Source: Neobacillus thermocopriae
GTDB lineage: Bacteria; Bacillota; Bacilli; Bacillales; Cytobacillaceae
Reading direction: 5' to 3'
NCBI RefSeq assembly: GCF_010975035.1
Contig: NZ_JAAIUV010000004.1
Span: 62,001-126,000 of the forward strand
Length of the DNA stretch: 64,000 nucleotides
Of the stretch, positions 23,297 through 25,167 are shown piece by piece. The notes beneath the pieces were generated by a model. That model was given only the letters and a program-made list of their open reading frames with translations, was not told the origin of the DNA and made no database searches. The translations under genes and the position numbers were made by a program. The first letter of the stretch is position 1, and each line of letters opens with the position of its first letter.

Positions 23297-24561
23297 TTAA
23301 CGAAGAAGTTGTAAAACTGCCTGTGGTTGTTGATTTGCTTGAGCAAGCATTGCCTGAGCTGCTTGAGCAAGAATAGAGTTCTTCGTTTGGTTCATCATTT
23401 CTTTCGCCATCGTGCGAACATTTGCTTTCACAAATGACTAGACTATATCTTCACCCTCTGATAATCAGTAGGGGTCGGGCACTTCGGATTCACAATGCTG
23501 ATGGACATTGTTTCACCTATGGATTTCATCATCATAGCTTACGCCTTAGATGGTCTATCCTAGTCGTTGAACCTTCTCCAGAGTTTCCTCACAGGAGCTT
23601 GGCTGCTGATTGCCCAAATCTTTTCTTTTTTCAAACCATCACGCCTGTCGTTTCCGACTACGTTGTGGTAAGAAAAGCTCTAAGGGGTTTCCAGCAATTC
23701 ACCCGATTATACTCACTAGCCGTTACCAGCTAGGACGACTGTGCTTTTCGCTGCCATTTAAGCAGTTAAAGCATAATCTACGTCACGAACACGAGATTCT
23801 GCTGCTGATAAGTTTTCAGAAGATGTATTTAAATTATTTATTGTGTGTTCTAAACGGTTTTGATAAGCACCCAATTTGGAACGTTCAGCGGACACAGTAT
23901 CAATTGCTGATTGGATAGTCGTAACAGCTGCTGTAGCTGTTGCCGCATCAGTAGAAATATCTATACCCTTAGTTGCGGTAGCTTGACCTGAAGTACCAGC
24001 AGTCTCAGCATCGGTACCAGTACCATCATCAACGCCTAAAGTATGTGCATCCATAGCCTTTATTGTTAAGGTAATTGTTTGGCCTTCATTAGCACCGATT
24101 TGGAATGTTAAATCTTGACCAATAGTAGTATTTGAAGCATCTCTTGAACCATCAAGTAACTTCATTGTGTTGAACTCAGTTGTATTAGAAATTCTTGTAA
24201 TTTCTTTTGCAAGTTCATCAACTTCCTCTTGAAGTCTTGTTCGGTCATCAGATGTATTAGTATCATTGGAAGCTTGTATTGCTAATTCACGCATACGTTG
24301 AAGAATGCTGTGAGTTTCATTTAATGCACCTTCAGCAGTTTGAATTAGGGAAATTCCATCTTGTGCGTTTTTAGCAGCCATATCCAATCCACGAATTTGT
24401 CCACGCATTTTTTCAGAGATTGCTAGACCAGCAGCATCATCGGCTGCACTATTGATACGAAGTCCAGATGATAATTTTTCCATAGATTTCATTTGTGCGT
24501 TGTTTGCTGCACCTAGCTGACGATAAGTATTTAGTGCTGCGATATTGTGGTTAATACGCAT
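23297..24561 (-). CDS. hag: Flagellin Hag, split by a group I intron (join 23761..24561 and 23297..23410)
   Basis: Flagellin is the filament subunit. Exon 1 (267 codons) starts [20 protein letters not shown], has the D1 motif [20 protein letters not shown], and ends [15 protein letters not shown]. An in-frame TAA follows at once. The missing C-terminal helix ([20 protein letters not shown] ... VLQLLR, 37 codons) lies 350 nt downstream in the same strand and phase. Between them is a folded group I intron, so this is a split gene, not a pseudogene. The spliced product would be 304 residues. AAGGAGG precedes the ATG. Flagellins usually read RDVDMAKEMM here, so YALTA is extra. Confidence 0.93.
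23411..23760 (-). ncRNA. ORF-less group I intron (subgroup IA-like) inside hag
   Basis: The 350-nt intron contains every group I core part. P1 pairs exon end CUGCU (23765-23761) with guide GGCAG (23755-23751), putting a U-G pair at the 5' splice site. P2 is 23733-23716. P3 pairs UCGGGU (23706-23701) with GCCCGA (23480-23475). P4 pairs UUGCUG (23697-23692) with CAGCAG (23608-23603). P7 pairs GACUA (23565-23561) with UAGUC in AAGAUAUAGUC (23451-23441). P5, P6 and P8 hairpins are present, as is P9 with a GAAA loop. P9.0 (GU/AC) abuts the terminal G at 23411. Extra hairpins between P7 and P3' suggest subgroup IA. No homing endonuclease ORF exists. Confidence 0.93.
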
Positions 24562-24630
24562 AAGTATTTTTCCTCCTTAAATCAATGTAAGTCTTTTTGA
24601 AAATAATTTATAACAAACCCATTGGGTCTA

Positions 24631-24657
24631 TTATCAATATGGAAATGAATAGTTTTA
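24631..24657 (-). promoter_or_regulatory. Candidate sigma-D promoter of hag
   Basis: On the minus strand: TAAA (24654-24657), 15-bp spacer, ATTGATAA (24631-24638). The last five -10 bases match GCCGATAA, the first three do not. It would give a leader of about 60 nt ending in AAGGAGGA, a likely CsrA target. Confidence 0.6.
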
Positions 24658-24672
24658 AAGAGTATGTACTAT

Positions 24673-25002
24673 TTAGTTTTCTGCTTGAAGAATACCGTTG
24701 TACAATTCTTCTCGAGAAATAGTAATTTCTTTTGGTGCATCAATGGCGAGGCGGTTTAGGCCGGATTTAGTTTGGAGCATGGTTACTTTTACGTCTTCTC
24801 CAATCAAAAAGGTGTCGCCAATAATTCTTGCACCTTTCTTTAACTTTCTAGTACAGTTTGGATGTTGTTTTACTCGATGAACACGGATGTGCTTAGGCGC
24901 ATCAAACGTTAATCGGAGCATAGAACCTATTTGCGAAATAGTAACTTTTACTTCATTACCAATGATCACGGATTGTCCAATTTCTCGACCGATAATGAGC
25001 AT
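24673..25002 (-). CDS. csrA: CsrA-type RNA-binding protein with two CsrA units in one chain
   Basis: CsrA binds GGA motifs in mRNA leaders; in Bacillus it represses hag translation and is countered by FliW. A normal CsrA has 60-75 residues. This one has 109 and reads as two copies. Residues 1-43 are MLIIGREIGQSVIIG ... LRLTFDAPKHIRVHR. After a basic linker (VKQHPNCTRKLKKG), a second copy runs RIIGDTFLIGEDVKVTMLQ ... LAIDAPKEITISREELY plus the C-terminal helix. Both copies keep the DAPK turn and the Arg of the RNA-binding edge. Only the second has the end helix. ATG 25002 has GGGGGA at 7 nt. A frame-intact single ORF rules out a pseudogene. Confidence 0.88.
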   Translation of the reverse strand: MLIIGREIGQSVIIGNEVKVTISQIGSMLRLTFDAPKHIRVHRVKQHPNCTRKLKKGARIIGDTFLIGEDVKVTMLQTKSGLNRLAIDAPKEITISREELYNGILQAEN

Positions 25003-25042
25003 GTTACCATCCCCCAAAGGTTCAATTACCTTACACTTCTAT

Positions 25043-25069
25043 TTATCGGGAATAGATGAGAATTGTTTA
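25043..25069 (-). promoter_or_regulatory. Proximal sigma-D promoter of csrA
   Basis: On the minus strand: TAAA (25066-25069), 15-bp spacer, CCCGATAA (25043-25050). It lies 40 bp upstream of the csrA start. Confidence 0.8.
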
Positions 25070-25140: not shown

Positions 25141-25167
25141 TTATCGGACGTTTAATAAGATTGTTTA
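25141..25167 (-). promoter_or_regulatory. Distal sigma-D promoter of csrA
   Basis: On the minus strand: TAAA (25164-25167), 15-bp spacer, TCCGATAA (25141-25148). It is a second good match 98 bp upstream of the first, reading in the same direction with no gene between. Confidence 0.65.

Follow-up and report, generated by a model that had tools for sequence, protein, structure and literature searches.

Tandem CsrA of Neobacillus, a conserved CsrA variant and likely single-chain pseudo-dimer

CsrA and its closest relatives

CsrA is an RNA-binding regulator that ordinarily acts as a pair of identical chains, with FliW as its usual partner. Each RNA face combines beta1 from one subunit with beta5 from the other, L4 and R44 being critical, and the R44A substitution abolishes regulation by E. 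coli CsrA (PMC7652899). The need for two RNA faces in the dimer has so far been tested with engineered, half-dead heterodimers; in those with one R44A subunit, full repression of glgC needed both faces, according to the summary of this work in PMC7652899 (Mercante 2009). Variation on the homodimer is exemplified by RsmN/RsmF of Pseudomonas aeruginosa, a CsrA variant of altered chain topology which is a homodimer of one-unit chains carrying a helix insert (PMC3791407). A further group, for which no paper was found, comprises short CsrA paralogues (about 50 amino acids, MLVLGRKPGEY...RGE) encoded in Bacilli and Clostridia directly upstream of hag and separate from fliW-csrA. They occupy loci L074-L126 and L168-L170 (e.g., L097:6001-6795 and L078:5980-7481), often as two genes in a row, and in three Bacillaceae the first of these genes has cysteine for R6, a hint of heterodimers.

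The window, a 64,000-nucleotide stretch of the Neobacillus thermocopriae genome, contains a csrA gene that carries two CsrA units in one chain. Its parts are as follows.

24673..25002, minus strand: tandem (double) csrA, 109 amino acids, sole csrA of the genome (PF02599 profile match)
24871..25002, minus strand: CsrA unit 1, residues 1-44, with beta1 intact, beta5 eroded and no C-terminal helix (PF02599, 40.6 bits; conservation; DSSP)
24829..24870, minus strand: residues 45-58, basic linker that passes into the degenerate unit 2 beta1 (net charge; coil in the AF2 model)
24676..24828, minus strand: CsrA unit 2, residues 59-109, with beta5 and C-terminal helix intact (PF02599, 45.8 bits)
24982..24999, minus strand: beta1 of unit 1 (LIIGRE), one half of the likely conserved composite RNA face (R6 in 26/26 sequences, position 7 acidic in 26/26)
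24706..24726, minus strand: beta5 of unit 2 (ITISREE), second half of that face (R44, E45 and E46 equivalents each in 26/26)

The reading frame runs from an ATG through 109 codons to its stop codon with no internal stops. A profile search finds PF02599 twice in this frame, at residues 1-43 (40.6 bits) and 59-104 (45.8 bits); each unit scores above 27 bits and passes the curated cut-off, and the whole protein scores 82.5 bits. The DAPK turn is found in both units, and the original prediction of two CsrA units in one intact 109-residue chain is borne out. Like CsrA, RsmA and RsmE, the protein belongs to NCBIfam TIGR00202 and NF002469 as well as PF02599, and it is the only CsrA that the profile search recovers from this genome, which is 99.97% complete. 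Additional weak PF02599 matches in three other genomes (G012, G028 and G032) were rejected as S1-domain-like proteins. Natural tandem CsrA was described in none of the open-access full texts searched, subscription papers lying outside that search. Tandem CsrA is a new variant of CsrA, real and conserved.

It shares with the CsrA/RsmA/RsmE homodimers the face built from beta1 and the opposing beta5 with R6 and R44, and, in unit 2, the C-terminal helix. It differs from them in holding both subunits in one chain, in its single conserved face, in an acidic residue 7 and in the helix-less unit 1. RsmN likewise departs from the usual chain topology, but with one unit per chain where tandem CsrA has two. 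The short CsrAs also lie directly upstream of hag and are the type to which the tandem units score closest; however, they are encoded by separate genes, usually keep both R6 and R44, and have hag leaders that keep GGA hairpins.

Conservation and predicted fold of the two halves

Residue conservation was compared among 26 tandem, 38 canonical and 41 short CsrA sequences. R44 is invariant in canonical (38/38) and short (41/41) proteins and in tandem unit 2 (26/26), but is present in unit 1 of only 8/26 (Fisher p 7e-8, a value that ignores relatedness and so overstates the evidence, although six different states occur at this position in unit 1). E46 follows the same pattern, being found in 38/38 canonical proteins, 40/41 short proteins and 26/26 second units but in 0/26 first units, where lysine replaces it in 25/26; the E45 equivalent of unit 2 is present in 26/26. 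In beta1 the asymmetry is reversed. R6, kept in 38/38 canonical and 38/41 short proteins, is found in 26/26 first units and 20/26 second units, and where beta1 ordinarily has L2 and I/V3, unit 2 has varied, often basic residues. The RNA-face residues (L4/R6 and R44) are therefore kept in the composite of unit 1 beta1 and unit 2 beta5 and not in the other face. If the pairing is between unit 1 and unit 2, the conservation amounts to exactly one composite face; pairing of unit 1 with unit 1 and unit 2 with unit 2 would leave no intact face.

These patterns make it likely, with considerable confidence, that tandem CsrA is a single-chain pseudo-dimer, and likely too, if with less assurance, that it has a single conserved RNA face. 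A pseudo-dimer with unequal RNA sites had been suggested from the window; conservation in the 26 relatives is its main support, and the inequality goes further than was guessed, the key arginines of one composite site being present in all 26 tandem sequences and the opposite site being eroded. The prediction had also placed a key arginine in each unit. Both are there in the window protein, as R43 (VHR, unit 1) and R97 (SRE, unit 2), but the first is not a conserved feature, given its presence in only 8/26 relatives; the N. vireti homologue, for instance, does not have it. Engineered heterodimers with one R44A subunit offer a parallel, with a single working RNA face; they are, however, laboratory-made, while the asymmetry of tandem CsrA is natural and lies in one chain. 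Even the conserved face could bind RNA more weakly, since position 7 is acidic in unit 1 of 26/26 tandem proteins (almost every other CsrA has K or R there) and L4 is conservatively replaced by V or I.

Could both faces nevertheless work? A pseudo-dimer with two functional, unequal RNA sites might use for the second whatever arginines and lysines remain in unit 1 beta5, together with the basic linker. The linker is basic in 26/26, as was predicted, with a net charge over residues 43-60 of +7 in the window protein and +4 to +8 in the 26 relatives. The R44 position of unit 1 is R or K in 16/26, and with R43 retained the second site may still work in the window species. The same position is, however, Q, S, P or T in 10/26, lysine has replaced E46 of unit 1 in 25/26, and unit 2 has a degenerate beta1; R44A kills regulation by E. 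coli CsrA (PMC7652899), and the second GGA hairpin is gone from the hag leaders. Two working sites are accordingly considered rather unlikely.

An AF2 model of the tandem chain, built with 20 relatives and with strands assigned by DSSP, has a pLDDT of 83 and a pTM of 0.74. Unit 1 contains strands at residues 2-5, 11-14, 18-25, 28-34 and 41-44, a coil spans residues 45-58, and unit 2, with no separate beta1, contains strands at 59-67, 71-77, 83-88 and 95-97 followed by a helix at 98-108. As predicted, the C-terminal helix is confined to unit 2. In the tandem chain both beta1 and beta5 of the first unit take shape, as does beta5 of the second, whereas a canonical CsrA chain (residues 1-52) modelled alone forms no beta1, beta5 or helix, as expected because its partner strand sits in another subunit. 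The model thus suggests that the normally exchanged strands find their partner within the same chain. Structure prediction of the monomer had been proposed as a check, and its outcome is mixed: the strand pattern fits two units, but Foldseek matched the model to no CsrA structure in the PDB, although the canonical control was matched. This may reflect the changed environment of the swapped strands, or a wrong model. A sequence search of the PDB matched CsrA chains over unit 2, and Foldseek against BFVD gave weak full-length matches, one of them named "Carbon storage regulator" (E 1e-3, TM 0.46, rmsd 7.2).

The Foldseek result would also suit units that pair between chains, their exchange building higher oligomers, as no compact CsrA unit was recognised. 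Natural CsrA dimers are strand-exchanged, and pairing of unit 1 with unit 2 across chains would yield identical faces. Against this, the AF2 single chain makes the normally exchanged strands with no partner chain, which the canonical chain alone does not, and inter-chain assembly is judged improbable.

Flagellin locus, RNA sites and FliW

Tandem csrA sits between fliD and hag (gene names by sequence resemblance), with the following features around it.

25142..25167, minus strand: second sigma-D-like promoter box upstream of csrA (TAAA-N16-CCGATA)
25044..25069, minus strand: sigma-D-like promoter box upstream of csrA (TAAA-N16-CCGATA)
25009..25018, minus strand: GGAUGG run in the csrA Shine-Dalgarno region (leader sequence)
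24608..24635, minus strand: dyad-symmetric element between csrA and hag (sequence symmetry)
23776..24561, minus strand: hag (flagellin) exon 1
23411..23775, minus strand: group I intron within hag (Rfam RF00028, 86.6 bits, match 23419-23789; boundaries approximate)
23297..23410, minus strand: hag exon 2, ending LQLLR

The start of hag lies 111 nucleotides downstream of csrA in the window and 92-155 nucleotides downstream in relatives, in agreement with the predicted adjacency. A sigma-D-like box is found upstream of csrA in 20/20 tandem loci and no such box in the csrA-hag gap of the window; the description of the gene as strongly promoted thus gains partial support, from two predicted boxes. 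The late flagellar locus, the position of csrA beside hag and the sigma-D-like boxes all recall the Hag-FliW-CsrA system of Bacillus subtilis. The dyad element follows the pattern GATAATA-rr-CCC-nnn-GGG-TTATTATA; in some species a change in one arm is matched in the other. It also stands upstream of hag in relatives that lack csrA, and is therefore probably not a CsrA site; a similar form occurs in Paenibacillus and Tepidibacter. A group I intron interrupts hag close to its 3' end, with exon 2 after it, and was the only element above gathering score in the Rfam scan. Such introns are already known in flagellin genes of thermophilic Bacillus and Geobacillus (PMC3984707).

Hag leaders were taken from loci gathered through CsrA searches, a non-random sample. 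A hairpin with GGA in its loop was found in 14/16 canonical (FliW/CsrA) loci (expected 3.0) and 19/19 short-csrA loci (expected 3.8), and in 2/24 tandem loci (expected 2.3), which is chance level. In the other 22/24 all that remains is the Shine-Dalgarno GGAGG, expected there anyway. The csrA genes themselves present a similar picture: GGA-loop hairpins flank short csrA upstream in 15/41 and downstream in 32/42, and tandem csrA in 1/20 and 0/20, respectively, not above chance. Hag had been named as the expected target; it does adjoin csrA, but with the hairpin missing in 22/24 tandem loci its standing as target is uncertain. In about half of 20 tandem csrA relatives, as judged by eye, AGGAUG overlies the gene's own Shine-Dalgarno sequence, and this AGGAUG/GGAUGG run is a possible candidate for a single CsrA site serving autoregulation. 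One protein face and at most one RNA site would be the simplest joint reading of protein and leaders, though the data would fit just as well if hag were no longer a target.

In the short-csrA loci, the stop codon is followed by a GGA-loop hairpin (32/42; e.g., L097, L120 and L074), in some cases ahead of a terminator-like CTCGTCCTTTTT; a further hairpin of this kind stands before the hag Shine-Dalgarno sequence. The whole region looks like a multi-site CsrA leader or a sponge.

The disappearance of GGA-loop hairpins near csrA and hag, the acidic position 7 and the lack of the gene in 41/61 Neobacillus genomes, some still with a csrA-type flagellar locus and hag, could also mean that CsrA-like RNA binding has been lost, the protein working through protein contacts or being a decaying remnant. 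This too is improbable. Across 26 sequences one face never varies in its R6, R44, E45 and E46 equivalents, the frames are intact with sigma-D boxes upstream, and decay would not spare one composite face.

No FliW (PF02623) was found in this genome, in the Neobacillus genomes (0/61) or in the two outlying genomes with tandem csrA (0/2), nor canonical CsrA in any tandem genome tested. By comparison, FliW is present in 6/6 genomes of four sister genera and 23/24 genomes of other families, nearly all of these FliW-bearing genomes having an ordinary single-unit CsrA. Control of tandem CsrA by FliW is thus rejected for the tandem genomes tested, and the altered FliW control that had been proposed is not supported. 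Tandem loci therefore differ from the B. subtilis system in lacking FliW, canonical CsrA and the GGA hairpin of the hag leader.

How might such a regulator act? The best overall explanation, which we think likely, is a single-chain CsrA with one RNA face that functions without FliW. The two halves would fold together like the subunits of an ordinary intertwined dimer, and the two chain ends would bring beta1 of the first unit together with beta5 of the second to make one RNA-binding face. On the other side, unit 1 beta5, unit 2 beta1 and the basic linker would make up a face that has lost its specific residues and is mainly scaffold. Such a gene probably arose when short csrA genes next to flagellin fused or were duplicated, in a lineage from which canonical csrA and fliW were lost. 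Probably expressed together with hag from sigma-D promoters, it would repress translation at one unstructured GGA site overlapping the Shine-Dalgarno sequence of its own mRNA and perhaps of hag, with no bridging of two RNA sites and no need of FliW. More tentatively, single-face CsrA may have replaced the flagellin switch of FliW, CsrA dimer and two sites, the second protein face being lost alongside the second RNA site of the hag leader; we would put this at somewhat less than an even chance.

One lineage appears to have gone to a single face without engineering; its roughly 20 species serve as replicates, and sister species that lack csrA as natural controls. Tandem CsrA would also offer a single-chain scaffold in which each face is separately mutable, and a flagellin-linked regulator operating without FliW.

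Distribution and origin

Tandem csrA occurs in 20/61 Neobacillus genomes, the double proteins being about 50-66% identical to that of the window, and in two unrelated genomes outside the Neobacillus family (G372 and G464). The proposed search for similar double proteins thus succeeded, and such recurrence means that the gene is neither chance nor an assembly fusion. It is rare more widely, with 4/397 genomes in an even sample of the order (three of them Neobacillus) and 2/399 in a sample of the class, the window genome included. In every locus checked it adjoins hag, and flagellin is present in 20/20 Neobacillus genomes with tandem csrA as against 24/41 of the remainder. As the two outliers belong to other families, transfer of the locus is possible.

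In a tree of CsrA units, the first units fall in one clade (support 0.999) and the second units in another (0.963), which puts one fusion or duplication earlier than the sampled species. The short-type profile outscores the canonical profile for unit 1 in 23/26 and unit 2 in 25/26 (mean margin 5-6 bits); neither tandem unit joined the short type in the tree. Judged from the profile scores alone, the protein probably descends from short csrA genes linked to flagellin that fused or were duplicated. In csrA-less relatives, tblastn matches to csrA between fliD and hag were at chance level only, and the gene appears to have been deleted.

Three Neobacillus loci (L157, L158 and L159) have a flagellar locus of the same type with no csrA upstream of hag and represent natural losses; sigma-D-like boxes are still present in the gap upstream of hag in L158 and L159. 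Five further flagellated, csrA-less Neobacillus (L160-L164) have a different layout, with hag about 1-1.6 kb from a flagellin-like gene that is probably flgL. CsrA-like proteins also occur in phages, as single units in P52 and KarBoss. Two viral contigs (L188 and L199) encode an uncertain double-like protein of about 106-118 amino acids, with a CsrA-like beta1 at the N-terminus and a CsrA-like beta4-beta5 (AIDAPRE..ILRG) at the C-terminus, which is possibly another pseudo-dimeric CsrA.
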